This document shows positions 15,960 through 30,797 of a DNA stretch of 35,918 nt, piece after piece (position 1 is the stretch's first letter; the number at the start of each line of letters is the position of its first letter). The notes beneath the pieces were generated by a model. The model ran no database searches. It saw only the letters and a program-made list of their open reading frames with translations, and was not told where the DNA came from. The translations under genes and the position numbers were made by a program. The DNA lies in NCBI GenBank assembly GCA_913009825.1, contig CAJVYQ010000056.1, positions 1 through 35,918 of the forward strand, written 5' to 3'. This DNA comes from an uncultured Deferribacteres bacterium (GTDB lineage Bacteria; Zhuqueibacterota; JdFR-76; DREG01).

Positions 15960-15988
15960 TTGACAATGTAACATTAATTTGTTAAAAT
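15960..15988 (+). promoter_or_regulatory. Sigma-70 promoter of the TonB-receptor operon
   Basis: TTGACA (15960-15965), a 17-base spacer and TAAAAT (15983-15988) form a near-consensus promoter. The start site would be about 15995, leaving a leader of roughly 340 bases before the receptor ATG at 16333. The leader is AT-rich and contains no gene that I can support. Confidence 0.7.
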
Positions 15989-15992
15989 TAGG

Positions 15993-16004
15993 GCAATCGA
16001 TTGC
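15993..16004. promoter_or_regulatory. LacI-family-type operator
   Basis: GCAATCGATTGC is a perfect 12-bp palindrome with the central CG typical of LacI/GalR-family operators. It lies 5 bases after the -10 box, across the predicted start site, where a bound repressor would block transcription. The cognate regulator is not in this window. Confidence 0.6.
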
Positions 16005-16332
16005 ATTGATATTATCGGACCTATTTTAAGTGCATTATCACGTATGATTTTTTAACCTCTTGATGCCGAGTGAATTGAGTTTTTTAAAAAATTAATTTAA
16101 TTCTTTAACTTATTGTGTTTATATGAACGCTGCTATTCCAGCCCAATTTTTTTTAACCGATCTGTTCATCATCATGCAAATCAGGAAAAAAAGCAGCACT
16201 TTATCCAAATTACAGAATTTTAAAACCAAACCTGAATCAGTGGTTTTTGCCTTAATTAAAATATAAAGATCGCGGGTACCATTCATTAAAAATGTCGAGA
16301 ATCCAAATCAGATAAATTGCGGAGGCTCATAT

Positions 16333-19332
16333 ATGAAAAAAATATGTTTTTTATTACTTTTGATCATGTTAACCTTCCTGATTTCTCTACCGTTGTTTGC
16401 CGGTACGACAGGGAAAATAAGGGGAGTGATTAAAGATAAGGCGAATGGTGATCCATTACCGGGTGTGAATGTGGTGATTACTCATGTTTGGCGGTTTGGT
16501 AAAGCAGTAAAATTGACAACACCGTTAGGGGCCGCGACCAATTTGAATGGTGAATTTATCATTTTGCAGGTGCCGCCCGGTATCTATTCTGTAACCGCAA
16601 AAATGATGGGATATACGAACAAAGTGCAGCAGCATGTGCAAGTCTTTATCGACCGGACGACAACCATTAATTTTACTTTACCTAGTATCGTTCTGGATCT
16701 GGGTAAAAGTGTGGTTGTCGAGGCAAAGCGGGATGTTGTTCAATTAGATGTGGCCAGCACGGAAAATTACATTTCCGAAGAAGATTATAAAGAGACTCCC
16801 TTTGCCAATCGCGTGGAAGATGTCATCGGAATGCAGTCGGGAGTCAGCGGTAACATCATCGAAGGTGAAATAAAAATTCGCGAGGGAGAGGCTTATGAAG
16901 TTGGTTTTCTGGTCGATGGCATGTCCATGGTGGACAATAAATTTAACCGGCCGGTTATTTCGATCAACCCCGGTGTGGTTCAGGAGATCAAAATCATCCG
17001 AAATGGATTCAACGCGGAATACGGACAGGCGCAGTCCGGGCTTATCAACGTCATCACAAAAAATCCCAACAACAAGCTTCATTTCAGTATGGATTACCAA
17101 TTTGATCCGCCACATCGCCCTAATTATGGCAGAAGTTGGTACGATCCGGCAAGCCGTTGGGAATACCGTTTGATTTCCGATCAATATAAACCGGATAGCC
17201 TGTTTCTGAATGAAGGGAGAGCAGGTGAATGGAAATATTGGAGAGGTTGGAAAAAGTACGCGGAAGACCTAAACAGTGACGGCGACCCCAACAACGATTT
17301 AACGCCGGAAGAAGCCAATGAACTGTGGAAATGGCGTCATCGGTCGGTAGATTATGGCAATCTGGCCGGCCATAATGCAGATTTTTCTCTTTCCGGCAGA
17401 GTTCCGTTGATTCCGTGGAAGGCAAATTTTTTAGCCGGCTTCAAATATGAATTCCATCCGTTTACATTGGCTCAGACCAGAGATCATTATGGCGAAAAGA
17501 TATCTTCCTTAAAGCTGGTAAATCAGATCACACCCAACCTGAAAATAACTTTGAACGGAATGTATTCCAAAGTGAAAACAGTGACGCAGGGGACTTCAAC
17601 GAGTTCCTGGAGTGAGGAAGACCGGCTGTCTTACAGCGGCGGCGGTGTCGACATTCACTATCGTTTTAGAAAACCGATTTTAGACCGGTCTACTTCCATC
17701 GCCGGATTAAAATTGGTTCATACACTTTCGCCGAAGATGTTTTACGAGATCAACCTCAACCATTTTTACATCGATTGGAATATTGGCCGCGGCGATTCTT
17801 CCCGCGCGGAGGATGGCAGATATTTTCATGGTCGACTGTATTATGACCCCAATTCCGGATGGATTTCACGAGCGAATGGAGTAGATGATGCTGCGTCGGG
17901 ATACCGCATGTGGGGTGCGCCGCACACCTGGGATGATTCTTACAATCGACGGACTGTTCTTCAAACCAGATTTACGGATCAGTTTAATGAATATAATGAA
18001 CTGAAAGCGGGATTTTCTTTTAAATATGAAACCCTTTATGAAAACCGTGTCCATTGGGATCATGAAGATCCGGAACAGGAGTTTCAGCGAAAAATGAACG
18101 TGAATCCGTTCGAAATCGGGTGGTTTGTGCAGGATAAAATTGAATTTAAGGGGATGATTGCCAATGTCGGAGTTCGCTTCGATTATTTTAACACCAATAC
18201 TGATGTTTGGGCAATCCACCAGGTGCTCGATCATGACGAAAATGATCAGGCGATCTGGACGAATGATACATTGTATCAGGCGGTAAAGTTGGGTATTTAT
18301 CCCAAATACAGGGCAAAACCAAAATACTATGTCAGTCCCAGAATCGGCATTTCGCATCCGTTGACCGATAAAAGCAAAATTTATTTTAATTACGGCCATT
18401 TTGTTCAAACACCAAGATCGGCTGCTCTTTACGAATATGTTTTGGACGGGCGTATGCCGCGTATACAGTGGATGGGCAATCCCGATATCGGTTACGAAAA
18501 GACCATTGCCTACGAATTGGGTTATGACCAGGCTATCGGTGATTACCTCAGTATTCATATCGGTGCGTTTTATAAAGACTATCACGATGTGGTGAGCGGC
18601 ATGGTGTATGCGCATTTCGATCAAAGTCTGGTGATGGAATGGGCGGCGCAACGGGAGAACAGGGAAATCCGCGGTCTCGAGATTGAACTGAGAAAAAGCT
18701 ACGGCAAATGGATCACAGGCTGGATCAATTACAATTTAACCAAGAAAAGTAAGAGCGATCTGGAAATTCCTAATCTTAGTGATATTCCCATTATCACCGA
18801 CGAACCTTCTGTAGGCATCAATGGTGAATTGAGAGGAGTTCCCCGGCAGATCGTATCGGACGTGGTTCCTTACGGAAGAGGAGTGATTACGTTTCGGGTT
18901 CCCGCACGATGGGGACCAAAATGGAAAGGCCGCTCTCTTTTGGGAAATACATCTCTGAGTACACAGGTATTTTATCAACGGGGCGGACAAAGAAAACATC
19001 CGCGCTCCAGTTTCCGGTCGGCTCACCCCGATGTACGTTTTCGTGAAATATCCAAATACTGGGCAAATATTCGCATTTCCCGCTCGTTCAATCTCAGAAC
19101 CCTGAGGCTCGATCTGTATATGGATGCCAGCAATGTTGTGCACAGTAAATTCAGATATCCTCCCGGTGGCCGTAATGGAGTAGATTATTATGATGACCTT
19201 TATGCCTCGGGGCGTCTGGATCAGGTGGGTACCGATAAACTTACAGACCCCAATATTTTTAACACGGAATCGGATAATGTCTATTGGGCAAAGTTGAGAA
19301 CCTATATCTTCGGGATCAGGCTGCATCTCTAA
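16333..19332 (+). CDS. TonB-dependent outer-membrane receptor with carboxypeptidase-regulatory-like domain
   Basis: This 999-residue outer-membrane transporter has a signal peptide at 1-23 (cleavage after LPLFA). A CarboxypepD_reg-like beta-sandwich follows at about 26-115 (GKIRGVIKDKANGDPLPGVN, then DLNGEF-like TNLNGEFIILQVPPG). The plug domain at about 120-240 includes RVEDVIGMQSGV, FLVDGMSM and the typical NGFNAEYGQAQSGLINVITK, and a large beta-barrel runs to the C-terminus (YIFGIRLHL). Such receptors import oligosaccharides, peptides or chelates with TonB energy. GGAGG precedes the ATG. It heads a four-gene unit behind a promoter with a LacI-type operator, which favours a sugar-regulated substrate, but it lacks an adjacent SusD-like lipoprotein. 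Confidence 0.93.
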   Translation: MKKICFLLLLIMLTFLISLPLFAGTTGKIRGVIKDKANGDPLPGVNVVITHVWRFGKAVKLTTPLGAATNLNGEFIILQVPPGIYSVTAKMMGYTNKVQQHVQVFIDRTTTINFTLPSIVLDLGKSVVVEAKRDVVQLDVASTENYISEEDYKETPFANRVEDVIGMQSGVSGNIIEGEIKIREGEAYEVGFLVDGMSMVDNKFNRPVISINPGVVQEIKIIRNGFNAEYGQAQSGLINVITKNPNNKLHFSMDYQFDPPHRPNYGRSWYDPASRWEYRLISDQYKPDSLFLNEGRAGEWKYWRGWKKYAEDLNSDGDPNNDLTPEEANELWKWRHRSVDYGNLAGHNADFSLSGRVPLIPWKANFLAGFKYEFHPFTLAQTRDHYGEKISSLKLVNQITPNLKITLNGMYSKVKTVTQGTSTSSWSEEDRLSYSGGGVDIHYRFRKPILDRSTSIAGLKLVHTLSPKMFYEINLNHFYIDWNIGRGDSSRAEDGRYFHGRLYYDPNSGWISRANGVDDAASGYRMWGAPHTWDDSYNRRTVLQTRFTDQFNEYNELKAGFSFKYETLYENRVHWDHEDPEQEFQRKMNVNPFEIGWFVQDKIEFKGMIANVGVRFDYFNTNTDVWAIHQVLDHDENDQAIWTNDTLYQAVKLGIYPKYRAKPKYYVSPRIGISHPLTDKSKIYFNYGHFVQTPRSAALYEYVLDGRMPRIQWMGNPDIGYEKTIAYELGYDQAIGDYLSIHIGAFYKDYHDVVSGMVYAHFDQSLVMEWAAQRENREIRGLEIELRKSYGKWITGWINYNLTKKSKSDLEIPNLSDIPIITDEPSVGINGELRGVPRQIVSDVVPYGRGVITFRVPARWGPKWKGRSLLGNTSLSTQVFYQRGGQRKHPRSSFRSAHPDVRFREISKYWANIRISRSFNLRTLRLDLYMDASNVVHSKFRYPPGGRNGVDYYDDLYASGRLDQVGTDKLTDPNIFNTESDNVYWAKLRTYIFGIRLHL

Positions 19333-19381
19333 CACCAGATATTCGAATAGATTTTGTTGCCTTAATCGCAGGAGGTGTTTT

Positions 19382-21430
19382 GTGAAATTTACGTATATGT
19401 TGAAATTGTCCGTTTTAATCTTAATTGCTATGATTGTGATGGCTGTAACCGCTTTGGCACAGTTGCAAAGTCATGAAATCGGACGTTTATGGGATACACG
19501 GTTTCCTGTTGGTTCGCTGCCGGACTACGCTCCGGTGCAGGATCAGATGTGTTATCCCGGCGGAGATTATTTTTTTCAAACCAGAAAAAACCTGGAACGG
19601 CGCGGCCTCTGGATCGGCGTAAAAGACTGGACGGATAAATTCGGAAAATTTTATCCTTATTATGTTTCGGAAGGCGGCCCCCTCAATTTTGACGCACTTG
19701 AATATAATACACAACTTTCAAATAAAAAATATACCCGTGTTCGTTTACCCAATGTAATTGTGAACGGTTCCCGGGAGACACGTCTCCTGGATTGGCGCAG
19801 CGGTCATAAAGTGTACAAAAAATCCACATTGGCAAGCGATGAAAAAATTATCACGGTCTGGACTACAAATGTTGGGGTTACTGTCACCCGGAACAGCTAC
19901 GCTTTTGCCAATCGAAAACATGATAGTTACATTATCCTGGAACATGTATTCCAAAATACCGGCAATGTCAATGGAAGCACCGGCTCAAGAGAATTGGCGA
20001 ACCAGAATCTTCATGATGTTTATTTTGGCTTCATTTTCAGATTTCTTCCTTCCGGTGATATCGGTCATGAACAGATGGGCGGGGAGAGGGATGATTGGGT
20101 GCATTATTACGGCAACCGGTTGGCTGACACATTGAGAGGGCTGTGGTATTGTTACGATGGAGATTCCCAACGCAAAGCGGGCGATGATATCGGTGATCCC
20201 AGCGATATCAATGGTGAGTTCTTATCGCCGCAATATGTCGGTGCCGGCGTTATCCATGCAGATAAGGCTTATAACGATGATTCGGATGATCCGTCTCAAC
20301 CGGCAACGGTTAATTATTGGGCCGGAGACCGCGCCCGTTCTCATACCAAAGGCGACCCCGAGCAGACACTTTATTTCGAATTGAATTCCGGTATTCAAAG
20401 TCATGGAACGGATACGGGAGCATTCACGCATCCCTGGAACCCGGAAATTCAGGGTCCCTGGGTTTTTATGGCCTTTGGCCCTTACGATATCCCCTATAAT
20501 AAAGAAGTTCGCATTGTGATTTACAATGCGGTTGGCATGATTTCCAGAAAAAAGGCAATCGAATACGGGCAACAGTGGAAAAACGGCGAACTTACCTATA
20601 ACGGATTAACCGGTGATGAAGCAAAAGATGCTATTGTTGCAACAGGTAAAGATTCTCTGTTTCTGTACGCTTCCCGCGCCGAGAAAACCTGGAAAAACGG
20701 TCTGGCCTCGGTACCCGACGGCCCCCCTACTCCGGATAATTTTAAACTGAACTCAGGTCCCGGCAGAATCGATCTGGAATGGGACCCGGTTGATGATAAA
20801 GAGGATCCGGATACCGGCGAACTGGATTTTGCCGGATATCGCTTATATCGCACGGAGGGATTTTATACTAATGAATATACCCGAATATGGGAATGTGGCG
20901 GCAGTTCGGGAATACCGGTATCAAATTCATATACTGATAGAAACGTGGAACGGGGGAAAAATTATTACTATTATGTGACCGCCTATGATGAACAGGGCAA
21001 TGAATCCAGTTATTTTTCTAACCGGAATTACCAATATGCTGCCGTTCCGTTTTTGGGGGCAAGGTCAAAACTTGATTCTGTTTATGTCGTTCCGAATCCT
21101 TTTCATGCGCAGGGGCTGGTTTACGGCGGCAGTTTGGAAGAAGATTACAAAGAGATCCCCAGAAAAGAAGATCAAATTCGTTTTGTGGGTTTACCGGCTC
21201 AGGCAACCATTCGAATTTTTACCGTAAGCGGTGATCTTGTTTCTACGCTGCATCATCCCAATCCGGAAAATCCTTTATCGGTTCCCGAATCTTCCGGTGA
21301 AGCTTATTTCCAGATTTCACAAAGTTGGCAGACCATTAAAAGCGGTGTATACTTCTATCATGTGGAAGGCTGGGATTTGGATGGCAATTACCTCGGTTCA
21401 ACCACCGGAAAATTTGTAGTTATCCGATAA
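19382..21430 (+). CDS. Secreted fibronectin-III protein with type IX-like sorting domain
   Basis: This 682-residue protein starts with GTG, supported by AGGAGG six bases upstream (19370-19375). It has a signal peptide ending ALA-Q at 26. A large N-terminal region (about 30-440) is rich in Tyr, Trp and Asp and has no family I can name. It includes GPYDIPYNKEVRIVIYNAVG, as in proteins paired with TonB receptors in FCB-group genomes. A fibronectin type III domain spans about 446-550 (DLEWDPVDD, GYRLYRTEG, YYYYVTAYDEQGNES). The C-terminal sorting module is about 567-682 (YVVPNPF, IRFVGLPAQATIRIFTVSGD, GKFVVIR). It is probably exported and held at the surface. The location between a TonB receptor and a PorV-like barrel suggests a surface substrate-binding role (inference). 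Confidence 0.85.
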   Translation: MKFTYMLKLSVLILIAMIVMAVTALAQLQSHEIGRLWDTRFPVGSLPDYAPVQDQMCYPGGDYFFQTRKNLERRGLWIGVKDWTDKFGKFYPYYVSEGGPLNFDALEYNTQLSNKKYTRVRLPNVIVNGSRETRLLDWRSGHKVYKKSTLASDEKIITVWTTNVGVTVTRNSYAFANRKHDSYIILEHVFQNTGNVNGSTGSRELANQNLHDVYFGFIFRFLPSGDIGHEQMGGERDDWVHYYGNRLADTLRGLWYCYDGDSQRKAGDDIGDPSDINGEFLSPQYVGAGVIHADKAYNDDSDDPSQPATVNYWAGDRARSHTKGDPEQTLYFELNSGIQSHGTDTGAFTHPWNPEIQGPWVFMAFGPYDIPYNKEVRIVIYNAVGMISRKKAIEYGQQWKNGELTYNGLTGDEAKDAIVATGKDSLFLYASRAEKTWKNGLASVPDGPPTPDNFKLNSGPGRIDLEWDPVDDKEDPDTGELDFAGYRLYRTEGFYTNEYTRIWECGGSSGIPVSNSYTDRNVERGKNYYYYVTAYDEQGNESSYFSNRNYQYAAVPFLGARSKLDSVYVVPNPFHAQGLVYGGSLEEDYKEIPRKEDQIRFVGLPAQATIRIFTVSGDLVSTLHHPNPENPLSVPESSGEAYFQISQSWQTIKSGVYFYHVEGWDLDGNYLGSTTGKFVVIR

Positions 21431-21442
21431 AAGGAGAATAAA

Positions 21443-22474
21443 ATGAAAAGAGTGGCAATTTTCATTTTGATATCGATGCTAACCCTGGGAGCATTTCATA
21501 CAAACTTGTTTGCCTTAAAGAAAAAAGTAGCGCAGAGTGGTATGACTTATCTGGCGATCAGCTTAGGAGCCAGGGAAAGCGCCATGGGGGATGCTTCCGT
21601 TGCTTCTGTACGCGGTATACAAGGCACGTTTTACAATACGGCTGTTTTGGCGGATATTTCCAAATTTTCTTTTTGCATCGATCAGGTAAGCTGGTTGGTT
21701 GATACAAAGGTTTACGGTTTGGCGGCAGCATATTCTCTGGGCGGGATCGGTACGATCGGACTGGATTTGGTCTACATGGATTATGGTGAAATTATGGGAA
21801 CCAAAGCTGTGGATAAGTCCGTTGATTATCGCGGATTTATAACAACCGGTGATATCGGTGTGGAAGAATATGCATTGGGATTCTCATTTGCCCATCGCGT
21901 GAGCGATCGCTTTGCATTTGGCATACATGTGAAAAAACTGCATGAAAATTTAGGCAACGCAGAAATCGCCGTCAAACAGGACCCTAACACAGAACAGGTT
22001 ACCGAATATAAAATGGAAACCTGGAAACTGAATCATTGGGGTATGGATGTGAGTACCATGTATTTTACCGGATATAAAAACCTGGCCTTTGCCATGTCCA
22101 TGCAAAATTTTTCAACGGATATGAAATATTGGTACGAGGAATTTCAACTTCCGATGGCGTTGAGAATGGGACTGTCCATGGATGTCAGTCAGATATTTAT
22201 GCCCGCAAACGAAAATTTTCAATTGAATATGGCCATCGATGCGATCCATCCCAACGATTTTTTGGAACGGGTTCAAATCGGGACAGAGTTGGTGTATCTG
22301 AAACGATTTGCTCTGCGCGGCGGTTACAAATTTAATCATGATGTGGAAACCTTTACCCTCGGTGTAGGAATGGAATTTAGTTTTGCCGGGTTGGAGACCC
22401 GGTTTGATTTTGCCTATACCAACGCAAATTATTTCAAAGATGTGAATCGTTTTTCGTTACAATTTTCTTTTTAG
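21443..22474 (+). CDS. PorV/PorQ-like outer-membrane beta-barrel protein
   Basis: This 343-residue protein has a signal peptide ending near residue 24 (NLFA). The family signature is an early GARESAMGDASVASVRGIQG segment, which in relatives reads GaR..alGgA.vA.....a.y.NPA.l. Alternating hydrophobic strands and a terminal aromatic strand (NRFSLQFSF) indicate an FadL/PorV-type barrel. PorV shuttles type IX cargo to the attachment machinery, and PorQ-like relatives are general outer-membrane partners. It starts 12 bases after the sorted 682-residue protein with AAAAGGAGAATAAA as ribosome site. The neighbours suggest it serves the export or anchoring of the two sorted proteins in this operon (inference). 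Confidence 0.85.
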   Translation: MKRVAIFILISMLTLGAFHTNLFALKKKVAQSGMTYLAISLGARESAMGDASVASVRGIQGTFYNTAVLADISKFSFCIDQVSWLVDTKVYGLAAAYSLGGIGTIGLDLVYMDYGEIMGTKAVDKSVDYRGFITTGDIGVEEYALGFSFAHRVSDRFAFGIHVKKLHENLGNAEIAVKQDPNTEQVTEYKMETWKLNHWGMDVSTMYFTGYKNLAFAMSMQNFSTDMKYWYEEFQLPMALRMGLSMDVSQIFMPANENFQLNMAIDAIHPNDFLERVQIGTELVYLKRFALRGGYKFNHDVETFTLGVGMEFSFAGLETRFDFAYTNANYFKDVNRFSLQFSF

Positions 22475-22646
22475 TTGCAATAATTGTCTATAAAAATAAG
22501 CAGATGTAACGATGCAGCCCGCAAATAAAGCGGATCATACGAATAGTTACCGGTCCTTAAAATGAAGGTAGTGCTGTTTTATAATAAATTGTCTTGCTCG
22601 ACCGGTAAACAACCTTTTCTATTAACTAACTGATTGGAGGTGTGTT

Positions 22647-23783
22647 ATGTTACAAAAGCTACTGATATTTGTTGGTAGTATGTTACTTATTGTTGCCGCA
22701 TCCGGTTTTGCGTTGGCGCAGCAGCAGTACCCAATTATTTGGGAAGATCATTTTGAAGATGTTGACTCCCTTGCCCTCAAAAATGTCGGCTGGATCTATT
22801 ATCCGGAGCAGGATGTACCGGGACAGGTTATCCGGCAAAAGGATGGCGAACTGTTTATCGAAGCCGGCTCCTATGGCGGTCTGGTTGGCGTCGGCCTGGT
22901 TGCAACCAACGGTATACCGGAAATTACATTGGATGAAGATGGAAACATCGATAGTTCAACCGTTCAATTATCACTGCAAAATAAATGGGGTGATCCCAAC
23001 CAGTTGCTGACATTTAAGGTTCGTTTTGCCCGTTTTACCACATCCGCATTTGTAGTGGGAACCCGTATGCCCATCGATTCCAGCCGGGGTGATTCCGATC
23101 CTACGGAGGCGCCTGCATACGCTTTGATGATCAGCCCGCTGGATAATACGGTTATGATTGGCAGATATAATGAAGCAATGCAAGTATTAGCCCCGGACAC
23201 CTGGAGCTATTTTGCCCAGGCAGGTTTTGATTTTGATCTGGAAGTGGACTATTGGGTACAATTCTACCTCAAAGAAGGCGATCTGAAAGTGAAAATCTGG
23301 GAAGGTGAATTGGGTGATGAGCCTACAGAGTGGCTGGCAGAAGGGGTGGATGCTGAGCCGAGAGTAACCGGAAAATTCACCATGTTTGCTTCCATGGGTT
23401 CGCCGCCGCAGCCGGGCCAGGGCGACCGGTTCTATCTGGATGATATCGTAATGCGTGGATTGTCCACGACAGCGGTAAAATCCGAGACGGAAGTTATCCT
23501 GCCGACGGAGTTTGATCTGGAACAAAATTATCCCAATCCTTTCAATCCAAACACCTCGATTTCTTTTTCGCTGACGGTGAAGAACCATACTAAACTGGTC
23601 GTTTACAACACTATGGGACAGGTTGTCAATACAGTCATCGATGCGGATATGCTGCCCGGTTCCCATAAAATTGTCTGGAACGGTATGGACAGCAACCATC
23701 ATCCGGTAACAAGCGGTATCTATTTTTACCGTCTGACCAGCGGTAAACAATCTGTTACCAAACAAATGATTCTGATGAAATAA
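22647..23783 (+). CDS. Secreted protein with YPNPFNP type IX-like sorting domain
   Basis: This 378-residue protein has a signal peptide ending FALA-Q at about 25. The central region (about 30-275) opens IWEDHFEDVDSLALKNVGWI and runs through VDYWVQFYLKEGDLKVKIWE and GDRFYLDDIVMRG, the look of a concanavalin/LamG-like jelly roll that often binds glycans. The C-terminus (about 289-378) is a textbook sorting module: FDLEQNYPNPFNPNTSISFS, then VYNTMGQVV and GIYFYRLTSG, ending TKQMILMK. GGAGG precedes the ATG. It is the last gene before a strong terminator, although the 172-base gap upstream means it might have its own promoter. A role in surface glycan binding is inference. Confidence 0.85.
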   Translation: MLQKLLIFVGSMLLIVAASGFALAQQQYPIIWEDHFEDVDSLALKNVGWIYYPEQDVPGQVIRQKDGELFIEAGSYGGLVGVGLVATNGIPEITLDEDGNIDSSTVQLSLQNKWGDPNQLLTFKVRFARFTTSAFVVGTRMPIDSSRGDSDPTEAPAYALMISPLDNTVMIGRYNEAMQVLAPDTWSYFAQAGFDFDLEVDYWVQFYLKEGDLKVKIWEGELGDEPTEWLAEGVDAEPRVTGKFTMFASMGSPPQPGQGDRFYLDDIVMRGLSTTAVKSETEVILPTEFDLEQNYPNPFNPNTSISFSLTVKNHTKLVVYNTMGQVVNTVIDADMLPGSHKIVWNGMDSNHHPVTSGIYFYRLTSGKQSVTKQMILMK

Positions 23784-23832
23784 TCTGTAACATCTCTCGT
23801 TGTGCCGGGATGATTCGACGAATACCCCTTTT

Positions 23833-23875
23833 CATTGGCGCCGGAATCTTTTATCCGGTGCCAATGATCATTTGT
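23833..23875 (+). terminator. Intrinsic terminator closing the TonB/PorV/sorted-protein operon
   Basis: CATTGGCGCCGGA and TCCGGTGCCAATG pair over 13 bp with one G-T mismatch and an 8-base loop (23833-23866), followed by a T-rich run. It is the strongest terminator in the window and supports a single transcription unit from the 15960 promoter. Confidence 0.8.
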
Positions 23876-23900
23876 TTTGGTTTGTTTTTTTTTGAAGTAT

Positions 23901-23925
23901 TGTAACACTTTAGTTTTTTGAAAAA
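23901..23925 (+). repeat. Post-stop repeat motif
   Basis: TGTAACACTTTAGTTTTTTG followed by AAAAA is nearly identical to 9-28. It lies after the operon terminator. Confidence 0.65.
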
Positions 23926-23930
23926 TAACA

Positions 23931-24031
23931 GTAACTACTCAGGTAACCCACGAAAGACTCGAAAAAACACGAAAAAAAATTAGATAATACTTTTTGAGTG
24001 TTTCGTATATTTCGTGGACTGAATAGTTGCC
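23931..24031. repeat. Element with GTAACTACTCAGG / CTGAATAGTTGCC ends
   Basis: The inverted ends (23931-23943 and 24019-24031) resemble those of 9614-9726. The interior is a different palindrome, CCCACGAAAGACTCGAAAAA against TTTCGTATATTTCGTGG. A half copy with the same words lies at 33412-33450. Non-coding. Confidence 0.6.
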
Positions 24032-24094
24032 GGAAATGATAGAAGAGCGGAGTTTCCGGTCAGGAACTAAATAGTTGCCGACAATTTTCAGTTC

Positions 24095-24211
24095 CAATTT
24101 TTTCAATTTCTCTGTGTCCTCTGCACCTCTGCGTTAAAAAACAGGCATTCTAAATCGCAGAGACGCAGAGAGCGCAAGGGAAGCAGATTTCGGTAAAAAC
24201 CAAAGTGTTAC
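24095..24211 (-). repeat. Palindromic dispersed repeat, family A, copy 3 (inverted)
   Basis: Read on the minus strand, it begins GTAACACTTTGGTTTTTACC, then GAAATCTGCTTCCCTTGCG, CTCTCTGCGTCTCTGCG, a CCTGTTTTTTAACGCAGAGG turn and GAAATTGAAAAAATTGG. It is the only one of the three full copies facing against the genes. Confidence 0.75.
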
Positions 24212-24228
24212 GAATTATTACTTTTCTC

Positions 24229-24435
24229 GCAACTATTCATGTATGTTTGTTATTTTGATGCGTTATAGGTCTTCGACTCCGCTCAGGCCGGCTTAATAGC
24301 TGTGCTGAGCGCCTGCCTGCTGCGGGCAGGGAGTCGAAGCGTGATCGCAGCTAATTTTTAGTGCATACCCGAATAGTTATCTCCTGTAAAAAAACATAAT
24401 GTAGAGAGACGGGACTCGTCGCTCTACAAACCAAC
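24229..24435. repeat. Cluster of inverted repeats between GCAACTATTCATG and GAATAGTTATC
   Basis: GCAACTATTCATGTATG (24229-24245) faces GCATACCCGAATAGTTATC (24363-24381). Between them lies a palindrome, CTTCGACTCCGCTCAG and CTGAGCGCC with GGAGTCGAAGC. Just after is a separate hairpin, TGTAGAGAGACGGGACTCGT followed by CGCTCTACA. All are dispersed-repeat-like and non-coding. Confidence 0.5.
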
Positions 24436-24750
24436 CGATTGAAAAACTTGGCTAAAAAAACAAACTTTTACGATGCAATAATTTAAATACCTGTAAATTT
24501 ACCAAACACCATCCTTCCCTTGTGTGAGAAGAAAGTTAACGATATTCGAAATTCTTCAAGCCCATAAAACATCAGCCTGTGGCAGACCGGTTCTTAATAT
24601 AGCAAAGGTAGTAGAATATTAAACATCGCTGATTATTTAGAGTCTGTCCGAAAAGTGGAAAACATGCATCTTGCTTGTTTAATAAACTGTTTAGTTTCCT
24701 GCTTTTCAATAAGATTATAATTCAAACAGGATGTTTGATATACAATTTAG

Positions 24751-24911
24751 ATAACTATTCAGGTGTTTTCTTTCAATCTTTTTCGCCTTGCCGTGAACGA
24801 CAAGGCTAAGAAATAAAAGGGCGCTAAAGCGTCCTATTTACGATAGCATCCTTCAGGATGCTTTCATGTCTTAGCCTGAGGGGTTCACTCTCAGGCGACC
24901 TGAATAGTTAC
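24751..24911. repeat. Hairpin-array repeat with ATAACTATTCAGGT terminal inverted repeats
   Basis: ATAACTATTCAGGT (24751-24764) is inverted as ACCTGAATAGTTAC (24898-24911). The interior carries AGGGCGCTAAAGCGTCCT, AGCATCCTTCAGGATGCT and AGCCTGAGG-GGTTCA-CTCTCAGGC hairpins, matching the layout of 4012-4173. It combines the terminal motif of one family with the hairpin core of another. The remaining parts of 23784-25110 hold no gene. Confidence 0.65.
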
Positions 24912-25110
24912 CAATTTAGATACTTTTCGTTCAGACACTAATTAATGCTTTTCGTGTGTTTATAAATAATCTGAGCCTTTATTGTCTGAACGAAAATCCC
25001 AAAAACTGTAAAAGTGTCATCCCTGTGATAGCAGCCTGCCTGCACAGACAGGCCTGCCTGGGGCACGACGGGAATGATGACAGTGAAAAATAAAGAAGGA
25101 GTTTCTTGTC

Positions 25111-26244
25111 ATGTTAAAAAAATATTTTGTAATATGGCTCTCTTTGGGTTTATGGCTGCAATTTTCCTGTGGTCATTCCGTAAACGGTTACCGCACCACC
25201 GTTGGCAGCGGCCAGGATGAAATAACGGTGGTTGTCGTCCATGGCAGTCCTTATGAAATGGGGTTCGCCGCGGGGAATTTGCTGCAAGCAGAAATCAAAC
25301 CGTGTCTTTCCGGATTTTTAGATTTTGTCCAAAAAGCAGAACCGGAGCGTTTTTCAGATTCCGTTCTTGATGATGCATGGAACGCTATCTCACCTTTCGT
25401 CAGTGAACGCTTCAAACAAGAACTGAAAGGAGTTGCGGATGGCGCCGGTTTCTCCCTCGATCTGCTGCGTCGTGCGCATGCCATACCGGTGGTTGCAGAT
25501 TATGCCTGCAGCGGCGCGGCCGTTTGGGGAGAGGCGACAAGTAACGGCCATCTGTACCAACTCCGTAACCTGGATTTTATAATGCAGGCGCATCTGCAGG
25601 ATTATCCGGTGGTTATTATCTACAAACCGGTCGACGGTATCGCCCATGCTGTTGCAACCTTTGCCGGTTACATCGGCGCGCACACCGGCATCAATGCAAA
25701 AGGGATTGTACTGGGTGAAAAAGGAGTTTCTCCCCAAAGCGAGTATCCGTTTGATCTGAACGGCGTTCATTTCTCCACTTTGTATCGCGATATTCTTTAC
25801 GATGCATCCACATTGCAGGAAGCGGTTGAGCAGATAAAATCAGCACAGTTGATCAAACGGTATTATTTTTATGCCGGTGACGGCAAACCGGCGACCATGG
25901 GAGCGGTAAAAATTAAAGTAACCTCGCCGGATTCTGTTAAATTGACCGTCTGGAAAGATGACGATCCCACTGATGAAATGGCGCCCGACATTTTGAAAAA
26001 TGCTGTTTATTACACTATGAAAAATAAAATAGCCTTCGAACAATTAACCGAAAACAACGGCAGTTTTAATACGGACAAAATGATTCAATTATCCCGCGCC
26101 GTAGCCGATGATGATGGCAATCTGGTGAATGTAGTTTATGATGCCACCGGTTTGCAAATGTGGGTCGCTTATGCCGAAAAGATGGAGATTGCCGGTAAAC
26201 GTCCTTATGTGCATATTAATTTGAAAGATTATGGTTGGAAGTGA
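25111..26244 (+). CDS. C45-type Ntn-hydrolase (linear amide hydrolase/acyltransferase family), lipoprotein
   Basis: This 377-residue protein carries a lipoprotein signal (WLSLGLWLQFSC, lipobox Cys20). The core is that of the C45 / acyl-CoA:6-aminopenicillanate acyltransferase-like family, which self-cleaves to expose a cysteine and cuts linear amide bonds. GSPYEMGFAAGNLL (45-58) is the family's N-terminal motif, and YACSGAAVWGEAT (131-143) supplies the catalytic Cys133, followed by GHLYQLRNLDF. A good AGAAGGAG site precedes the ATG. It is related to the C-terminal half of the 615-residue protein further on, so the pair are local paralogues. The likely place is the outer or inner membrane facing the periplasm; the substrate is unknown. 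Confidence 0.85.
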   Translation: MLKKYFVIWLSLGLWLQFSCGHSVNGYRTTVGSGQDEITVVVVHGSPYEMGFAAGNLLQAEIKPCLSGFLDFVQKAEPERFSDSVLDDAWNAISPFVSERFKQELKGVADGAGFSLDLLRRAHAIPVVADYACSGAAVWGEATSNGHLYQLRNLDFIMQAHLQDYPVVIIYKPVDGIAHAVATFAGYIGAHTGINAKGIVLGEKGVSPQSEYPFDLNGVHFSTLYRDILYDASTLQEAVEQIKSAQLIKRYYFYAGDGKPATMGAVKIKVTSPDSVKLTVWKDDDPTDEMAPDILKNAVYYTMKNKIAFEQLTENNGSFNTDKMIQLSRAVADDDGNLVNVVYDATGLQMWVAYAEKMEIAGKRPYVHINLKDYGWK

Positions 26245-28949: not shown

Positions 28950-30797
28950 ATGAACAAAAAACTTTCCCGAAGTATTCTGGTTTTAATCGCGTTGCTTCTG
29001 ATATTGTCCATTGTCTTTTGGGGGCGTCTGTCCGGTTCTTACACCCTGTTTCAAATGACGGGTGAATTTACCCGGAGCTGCATCACCGGAAAAGACAATC
29101 TTAATCTAAAAGTAACCGGCAGTTGGGGACAAAACGGCCGACTCGATTCTCTGCGGGCGACTGTTCATTATAAAAAAGATCATCACTTTCTGGCAGATGT
29201 TCAAGTGAAACACAACCAGTATGTGGTGCAGAGTGATCAAAAGCAGACATTGGTGCTGATTTCCAACCCGAAATTGATTATTACAGGAAACGGGCCGGAA
29301 CAGAAAAATTTTGACATTCTGCTGCTGCTTGGTGAAATTGTGGGCAGTCATCCTCAATTGGCGCAGATGCTTGATCTGAATTGGACTAAACGTCTCGGCA
29401 TATCGGTGTGGTCATTTATGAAATGTGATTTTACCAAAAAGGAATGGCAGGGAAAACGGTACCAAATCATCAGGTTCCCGCATGAAATAAATGAAAACAA
29501 TCCGACAATCTGGAAAAATCTGGATCAACCGGGTGGGTTCCGGATTGTTGCCGGCGATTCACTCAATCCGTTTTCGGTTACCTTTTCCCCGGTAGATTCT
29601 GCTTATCTGCCGGCAAAAATTGATGAAAGCGGGGCGGAAAAATTGCTTGTAAACCGTCGGGAACTGAATACAGCCATTTATCGCGGCGCGGTTCGGGCAG
29701 CGACCATCTCCATAGAAAATAGGATGCCGCCGAAGCCGGACGGGAAAGACCGGGTTTGGGGAAAAGGGCTTTTGACTTATGTCAATGGCAACCGGGTACT
29801 CATCGCTAAAGGAACGCACAGGGAAATTGGCCGGGCCCACGGCGCCCTGCTGAAACAGGAAGTGAGGCAGATGGCAGACGCCACGCTTTACACCATCTGC
29901 TGGGTTTACACGCTGGAGCGCCGTCACTGGTTTCTGGATGATATGCGCGGCGCTTATGCCCGGTTAGCACCGTTTATCCCGGAAAAATATGAGGAGGAGA
30001 TGGCCGGCCTGGCTGAAACAAGCGGCATCTCGCTGGATGAAATCCATCTAACCAATGTTTTCCCGGCGCTGTTTCATTGTTCCGGGTTTGCGCTGTTTAA
30101 CAAAGCAACTGTGGACGGAAAGCTTTATCATGGCCGTGTATTGGATTATATCACTGATTTAGGTTTGCAGTATAATGCGGTTGTGTACATTTTACAGCCG
30201 AAAGGCAGCTTTGCATTTGCCAACGTGGGATTTGCCGGATTCATCGGTTCCGTCTCCGGCATGAACGACCAGCAGGTGGCTTTTGGTGAAATGGGCGGCG
30301 CCGGTGAGGGCGATTGGGACGGGATGCCCATGGCCTTTTTGATGCGGGAAGGACTGGAACGGGCAAAAACGTTAGCTGAAGCGGTAACTATTTTTCGCGA
30401 CACGCCCCGTACCTGTCAATATTTTTATGTGATTTCCGATGGTAAAATTCCCGATGCCCGCGGCCTGGCAACCACGCCGGCAAAATTTGAAGTAGTGAAG
30501 CCCAACCAATTGCATCCGCTTTTGCAGCATCCGGTTGAAGATGCCGTCCTGATGTCAGCCGGCGACCGGTATGAAAAGTTATTTGAAAGGGTGAAACAGA
30601 ACTACGGCAAAATCGATGCGGAGAAAGCGATTCGTTTGATGGACCGGCCTGTGGCCATGAAAAGCAATTTGCATGATGTGTTGTTTGCGCCGCAATCTCT
30701 GGAATTTTGGGTAGCCAACGCCGGCGCTTACACGCCGGCCAGCAGCGAGCCTTATACCCATTATTCGTTACCGGAACTGCTGCAGAGATTGAAGTAG
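28950..30797 (+). CDS. C45-type Ntn-hydrolase with long N-terminal LolA-like domain
   Basis: This 615-residue protein has an N-terminal membrane anchor or signal (ILVLIALLLILSIVFW, 9-24). A beta-rich region of about 240 residues (40-265) follows, with LNLKVTGSWGQNGRLDSLRA and YVVQSDQKQTLVLISNPKL, resembling the LolA/outer-membrane-lipoprotein-sorting type of fold. This resemblance is by pattern only. The C45-like hydrolase domain (about 270-605) carries GTHREIGRAHGALL (288-301) and ALFHCSGFALFNKATVDGKL with the predicted nucleophile Cys377. Normal family members are 350-400 residues, so the N-terminal part is an extra domain. It is a paralogue of the 377-residue enzyme at 25111. Function is probably amide hydrolysis in the periplasm; the substrate is unknown. 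Confidence 0.82.
   Translation: MNKKLSRSILVLIALLLILSIVFWGRLSGSYTLFQMTGEFTRSCITGKDNLNLKVTGSWGQNGRLDSLRATVHYKKDHHFLADVQVKHNQYVVQSDQKQTLVLISNPKLIITGNGPEQKNFDILLLLGEIVGSHPQLAQMLDLNWTKRLGISVWSFMKCDFTKKEWQGKRYQIIRFPHEINENNPTIWKNLDQPGGFRIVAGDSLNPFSVTFSPVDSAYLPAKIDESGAEKLLVNRRELNTAIYRGAVRAATISIENRMPPKPDGKDRVWGKGLLTYVNGNRVLIAKGTHREIGRAHGALLKQEVRQMADATLYTICWVYTLERRHWFLDDMRGAYARLAPFIPEKYEEEMAGLAETSGISLDEIHLTNVFPALFHCSGFALFNKATVDGKLYHGRVLDYITDLGLQYNAVVYILQPKGSFAFANVGFAGFIGSVSGMNDQQVAFGEMGGAGEGDWDGMPMAFLMREGLERAKTLAEAVTIFRDTPRTCQYFYVISDGKIPDARGLATTPAKFEVVKPNQLHPLLQHPVEDAVLMSAGDRYEKLFERVKQNYGKIDAEKAIRLMDRPVAMKSNLHDVLFAPQSLEFWVANAGAYTPASSEPYTHYSLPELLQRLK

Follow-up and report, generated by a model that had tools for sequence, protein, structure and literature searches.

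Importers of glycans and peptides of the SusC/SusD and RagA/RagB type are encoded by a TonB receptor gene that adjoins the gene of a surface partner, with accessory binders and glycan-degrading neighbors, and a TonB receptor with a surface partner other than SusD is known from the vitamin B12 pedal-bin complex BtuB/BtuG, whose partner BtuG is a beta-propeller lipoprotein. In the attachment complex of the type IX secretion system (T9SS), PorQ and PorV retain the CTD proteins PorZ and PorU, respectively, on the cell surface (PMC5562754), and the CTD of PorZ stays uncleaved (PMC8545088). For type B CTD proteins, as in the SprF-like shuttle pairs of Flavobacterium johnsoniae, the cognate barrels are encoded directly downstream, while one PorV is described as serving every type A CTD (PMC12618676).

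Here, we analyzed a stretch of 35,918 bp (the window), which is a contig of a 5.1-Mb host genome (123 contigs, 96% complete) whose relatives are recorded as candidate division KSB1, Calditrichota, or Caldithrix. It contains a unit that, like SusC/SusD and RagA/RagB, places a TonB receptor next to a candidate surface partner (a 682-residue protein, P682), a possible accessory binder, and glycan-degrading neighbors; unlike in those systems, the receptor lies outside TIGR04056, the partner is not a SusD by sequence or fold, has no lipobox, and is probably exported by the T9SS, and an extra barrel gene is present. At the level of genes, the unit resembles PorQ:PorZ and PorU:PorV in pairing a CTD-bearing surface protein with a PorV/PorQ-family barrel, but it is linked to a TonB receptor, occurs in many copies per genome, and encodes a P682 in which we found no propeller or sortase domain. 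It shares with the type B pairs a substrate gene directly followed by its own barrel gene, although its CTD stands closer to type A and its barrel is of the PorV-like kind. With BtuB/BtuG it has in common, again as genes only, a TonB receptor and a non-SusD partner, from which P682 differs by its fold and by not being a lipoprotein. The unit looks as if it had evolved independently as a counterpart of the SusC/SusD pairs with which gut bacteria take up sugars.

Table 1. Features of the unit, with positions counted from the first letter of the window.
Feature	Position	Strand	Basis or remark
Sigma-70-type promoter TTGACA-17-TAAAAT	15960..15988	+	11/12 consensus matches, TG before second hexamer
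Perfect palindrome GCAATCGATTGC, candidate repressor operator over expected start site	15993..16004	.	Sequence scan
TonB-dependent receptor, 999 aa, CarboxypepD_reg domain and plug	16333..19332	+	ORF and profile search
P682, 682-aa exported protein, GTG start	19382..21430	+	ORF
PorV/PorQ-family outer-membrane barrel, 343 aa	21443..22474	+	Profile search
P378, 378-aa exported protein, lectin-type jelly roll and standard T9SS type A CTD	22647..23783	+	Profile and fold
Intrinsic terminator, 14-pair stem then T-rich tail	23832..23867	+	Sequence scan

The promoter, the perfect palindrome, the four co-directional exported proteins, and the terminator were all confirmed where the initial annotation had placed them (Table 1). 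The promoter ranked first among 32 promoter-like sites in the 10.6 kb scanned, and the gaps between the open reading frames measured 49 bp (receptor to P682), 12 bp (P682 to barrel), and 172 bp (barrel to P378).

Upon checking other genomes of the phylum for conserved synteny, we observed the order receptor, P682, PorV-like gene at all 19 orthologous loci examined. P378 came next at 15 loci, and of those lacking it, two run into a contig end soon after the PorV-like gene. A peptide pattern blind to neighbors retrieved the wider P682 family from genome_contigs, comprising 78 loci in records of KSB1/Calditrichota, Neomarinimicrobiota, Ignavibacteriales, Latescibacterota, and WOR-3. In the 85 cases where the sequence reached far enough to show one, a TonB receptor lay at most 400 bp upstream of the P682-family gene in 80, and a PorV-like gene followed within 1.2 kb in 60 of 86, leaving ~30% of P682-type genes with the PorV-like gene missing downstream; about eleven further P682-family loci had the order PorV-receptor-P682, with the PorV-like gene just upstream of the receptor. 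The window's genome itself holds paralogous units on contigs C9 (two), C17, C29, and C51, of which that on C17 has the PorV-like gene between the receptor and the CTD protein, and on C1 a receptor and a PorV-like gene occur with a lipoprotein-like gene in the place of P682. Judged by gene order and sequence, the unit is real, widely conserved, and unlike both SusCD and the described T9SS modules. Searching the open-licence literature, we found no description of a TonB receptor-PorV-T9SS unit.

Gene linkage alone proves no complex, and the genes might be merely co-transcribed for a common substrate or regulator, with the PorV-like barrel acting as a separate small-molecule pore. That all distance matrices of the unit correlate would suit such plain co-transcription, as genes that are inherited together give correlated distances. 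Against this, linkage and order persist over several phyla and paralogous units, and the CTD class goes with PorV linkage (see below), and we regard mere co-transcription as unlikely. Among the loci compared, we also observed a tandem duplication of P378 (L065:11142-13678), two P378 copies apparently fused in one frame (L071:5742-7592), and a P682 orthologue with one in-frame TAA stop (L048 / L077:8892-10946, genome G034), which is either a pseudogene or a sequence error.

The receptor of the unit gave no match to the SusC/RagA model TIGR04056 at E <= 0.01. Three SusC/RagA receptors elsewhere in the genome score 541-766 bits with this model, and each is followed by a lipoprotein gene, two of these being matched by PF07980. 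The unit itself gave no SusD match. Since the genome does hold three SusC/RagA receptors with lipoprotein genes after them, a SusD encoded elsewhere might be the true partner of the receptor; each of these lipoprotein genes adjoins its own SusC, however, the window receptor falls outside TIGR04056, and 10 of the 19 other unit-bearing genomes hold neither a match to PF07980 or PF14322, the two SusD models searched, nor an over-cut-off TIGR04056 match, six of these ten being at least 90% complete. As the unit persists in ten genomes with no SusC or SusD detected by these models, a SusD elsewhere is no required partner, and we rejected this explanation as highly improbable. The initial annotation had seen its proposal of a dedicated uptake-and-display unit without SusD as vulnerable to precisely such a partner; the synteny and these ten genomes support the proposal. 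Elsewhere in the window's genome, on C36 (L221:5604-10398), C38 (L228:4242-9014), and C59 (L098:7881-11585), a receptor gene is directly followed by the gene of a generic type A CTD protein with no PorV-like gene, a second, PorV-free pairing of receptor and T9SS substrate.

P682 consists of an N-terminal beta domain with two helices (about residues 30-440), an FN3 domain (about 440-560), and a CTD (about 562-682). No Cys follows its signal peptide, so that no lipoprotein anchor is seen. P682 itself has no Pfam match, CTD included, and a Pfam search of its relatives yielded only two one-member matches and no enzyme family model. Its predicted structure (pLDDT 84.5, pTM 0.82) matched FN3 tandems, and a profile match to FN3 structures, at about residues 440-538, supports the FN3 domain that had been read from the sequence earlier; no SusD fold was among the matches listed for the model. 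The N-terminal domain gave weak fold matches to GH15 and GH94 sandwich domains (TM about 0.25, rmsd 10-13 Å). Residues H292, D294, Q306, and P307, in an Asp-rich loop, are invariant in all 29 relatives (alignment A1, residues 292-309), a motif that could be metal binding, catalytic, or structural. Both the fold matches and the motif would be compatible with P682 being a surface enzyme that trims the substrate for the receptor, rather than a binder or lid. The matched region is, however, what we take to be the non-catalytic sandwich domain of GH15 and GH94 enzymes, P682 has no catalytic barrel after it, and the lack of any enzyme family match among the relatives points the same way, which leaves an enzymatic role for P682 with a low probability.

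The two secreted proteins of the unit differ in their CTDs. While the P378 CTD scores 40.9 bits with TIGR04183, above the cut-off of 23, and is a normal type A domain, the P682 CTD stays below it with 14.2 bits. Of the two proteins that the initial annotation had read as sorted, P378 has the usual CTD and P682 an atypical one. Among 29 P682 relatives, six match TIGR04183 at E <= 0.01 and eight are matched by the PorZ profile, within the CTD in the members examined. A single branch with 100/100 support divides P682-type from generic type A CTDs, in a comparison whose class-2 (P682-type) rows were partly picked by similarity to P682, and the P682 and P378 CTDs are separated by that branch despite their common operon. 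In the window's genome, 5/6 class-2 CTD genes adjoin a PorV-family gene, as compared to about 4/45 generic CTD genes (Fisher p = 0.0003; adjacency counted by eye). P378 has a lectin-type jelly-roll fold that resembles legume-type and ERGIC-53 lectins and CBM66, which bears out the earlier reading of this protein as a jelly roll.

We found the barrel to belong to the PorV/PorQ family, in keeping with its earlier description as PorV-like, without being an equivalog of either namesake. It passes the family model NF033709 with 167.8 bits (cut-off 90), and reaches 71.9 bits with the PorV equivalog NF033710, far under the cut-off of 250, and 68 bits with the PorQ model (cut-off 220). The best candidates of the genome for these roles are encoded on C25 for PorV (227.8 bits) and on C16 for PorQ (206 bits), each slightly under the respective cut-off, and the other eight PorV/PorQ-family proteins compared stay below about 96 bits with either model. 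From these scores, it is likely that the window barrel is neither the PorV nor the PorQ of this genome. The genome encodes a T9SS translocon and sortase (SprA 876 bits, PorU 893 bits), and at the unit the gene of a CTD protein is linked to that of a PorV/PorQ-family barrel, as expected for anchoring of the PorQ:PorZ type. By analogy to such pairs, the barrel probably serves P682 as an anchor or shuttle rather than taking part in general type IX export, which refines the reading of the initial annotation. In addition to the main PorU on C34, we observed two extra PorU-like proteins under the PorU cut-off, at G000:C28:57482-62110 and G000:C20:27438-31526 (open frames of 1790 and 1615 aa), the latter gene adjoining a PorV-like gene at C20:31613.

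The neighborhood of the unit includes sugar-related genes. Flanks of the orthologous loci hold GH2, GH5, GH57, GH92, GH106, and BNR proteins, FGGY kinases, and Gfo/Idh/MocA proteins, and glycoside-hydrolase or BNR types account for at least about 16 of the 102 proteins in these flanks, whereas the families listed for 88 control proteins, taken from elsewhere in the window's genome, included no such type. The contrast is approximate, with p between 3e-5 and 0.016 depending on single-match families beyond those listed. The window itself encodes an SSF symporter, a DHDPS-family aldolase, a Gfo/Idh/MocA protein, a YdjC-type deacetylase, and esterases. The sugar link that had been suspected for the unit is strengthened by these neighbors, and a glycan or amino-sugar is the likely substrate.

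We suggest the following mechanism. The receptor, outside the SusC family, would import a substrate, most likely a glycan or sugar derivative, and P682 would stand in the place of the SusD lipoprotein as surface partner, exported by the T9SS. The CTD of P682 would dock in its own PorV/PorQ-family barrel, like PorZ with PorQ and PorU with PorV, and this docking would hold the N-terminal domain and FN3 beside or over the receptor, while P378 would exit by the ordinary type A route and might serve as an accessory surface binder like SusE/SusF. Export of P682 by the type IX route and its hold by the linked barrel are derived from PorZ/PorQ, PorU/PorV, and the type B pairs, together with the presence of SprA and PorU. 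Upon comparing distances, we observed a closer agreement of the receptor with the CTD and PorV than with the N-terminal domain of P682, although the joint inheritance of the genes and the presence of paralogues whose N-terminal domains are unrelated confound this comparison; the seating of the N-terminal domain on the receptor is hence a proposal only. An expectation that the N-terminal domain would track the receptor while the CTD tracks PorV was not borne out, as the CTD tracks both better.

The same distances would fit a receptor that aids the export or assembly of P682 instead of importing nutrients, so that the unit would be a surface-display or adhesion module; a precedent is the TonB receptor Oar, which is reported to be needed for secretion of the protease PopC in Myxococcus (PMC6434023). 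As the genome has its own T9SS translocon and sortase, the neighbors are glycan-degrading and transport genes, and one paralogous unit adjoins a LacI gene and ABC-transporter-like genes, such a helper function is improbable in our view. For the glycan-uptake unit, with a type-IX-exported P682 that is held by its own PorV/PorQ-type barrel and partners a non-SusC TonB receptor, we put the chances at about even. A more general proposal, for which we would give slightly under even chances, is that of a widespread, undescribed class of TonB uptake complexes. In these, the receptor would be of a non-SusC type, its partner would have a CTD class of its own and leave by the type IX route, and a dedicated PorV/PorQ paralogue would anchor that partner at the receptor, making up a SusCD counterpart assembled via the T9SS. 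Export and anchoring of P682, complex formation, transport direction, and substrate are all points that we infer, and the mechanism as a whole is well-grounded reasoning rather than demonstration. If true, phyla related to Bacteroidota would import nutrients with a type-IX-exported protein in place of the SusD lipoprotein, and many copies of the PorV-family proteins, for which the usual annotation is that of secretion components, would each anchor one specific partner, which would account for the some 20 PorV/PorQ-family genes in a single genome of this phylum. It would also add many uncharacterised TonB systems to carbon-uptake models of uncultured bacteria.

The part of the earlier interpretation that did not stand is regulation: while the conserved uptake-and-display unit without SusD and its sugar-related neighbors were upheld, control by LacI is weakly supported. 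By its shape, a CG-centered palindrome at the promoter, GCAATCGATTGC fits a LacI-type operator. Dinucleotide shuffling of the 383-bp intergenic stretch produced such a perfect 12-bp palindrome in 2.85% of the trials, so that the palindrome alone is suggestive and not compelling. It is missing upstream of 15 orthologous units, the window contains no LacI gene, and the genome has just a single further exact copy, which lies within a coding ORF; we accordingly rejected a GCAATCGATTGC regulon. A scan for GCAANCGNTTGY hit some two dozen places, from which no clear regulon emerged. The genome scan for a cognate regulator gave one lead. Among four LacI genes in the genome, that on C53 carries GCAAACGATTGT, a site with two mismatches, 84 bp upstream of its start (chance expectation roughly 0.04, an estimate for about 1.1 kb scanned with up to two mismatches). 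This LacI gene is unlinked to the unit and is followed (L190:6925-13302) by genes for an 842-aa protein, a HAD-like protein, and an SSF-like symporter, and the 842-aa protein is 59% identical to the BNR protein adjoining the orthologous unit in G065 (L064). The C53 LacI may be a candidate cognate regulator that controls the unit in trans, which on sequence grounds is only a lead.

An Rfam search of the window gave no match. Downstream of the unit, ~1.2 kb without a clear gene (23900-25110) is A/T-rich, palindromic, and repetitive-looking, and two C45-type acyltransferase genes lie at 25111-26244 and 28950-30797; homologues of these adjoin the unit on the opposite strand in L077 (one) and L078 (two).
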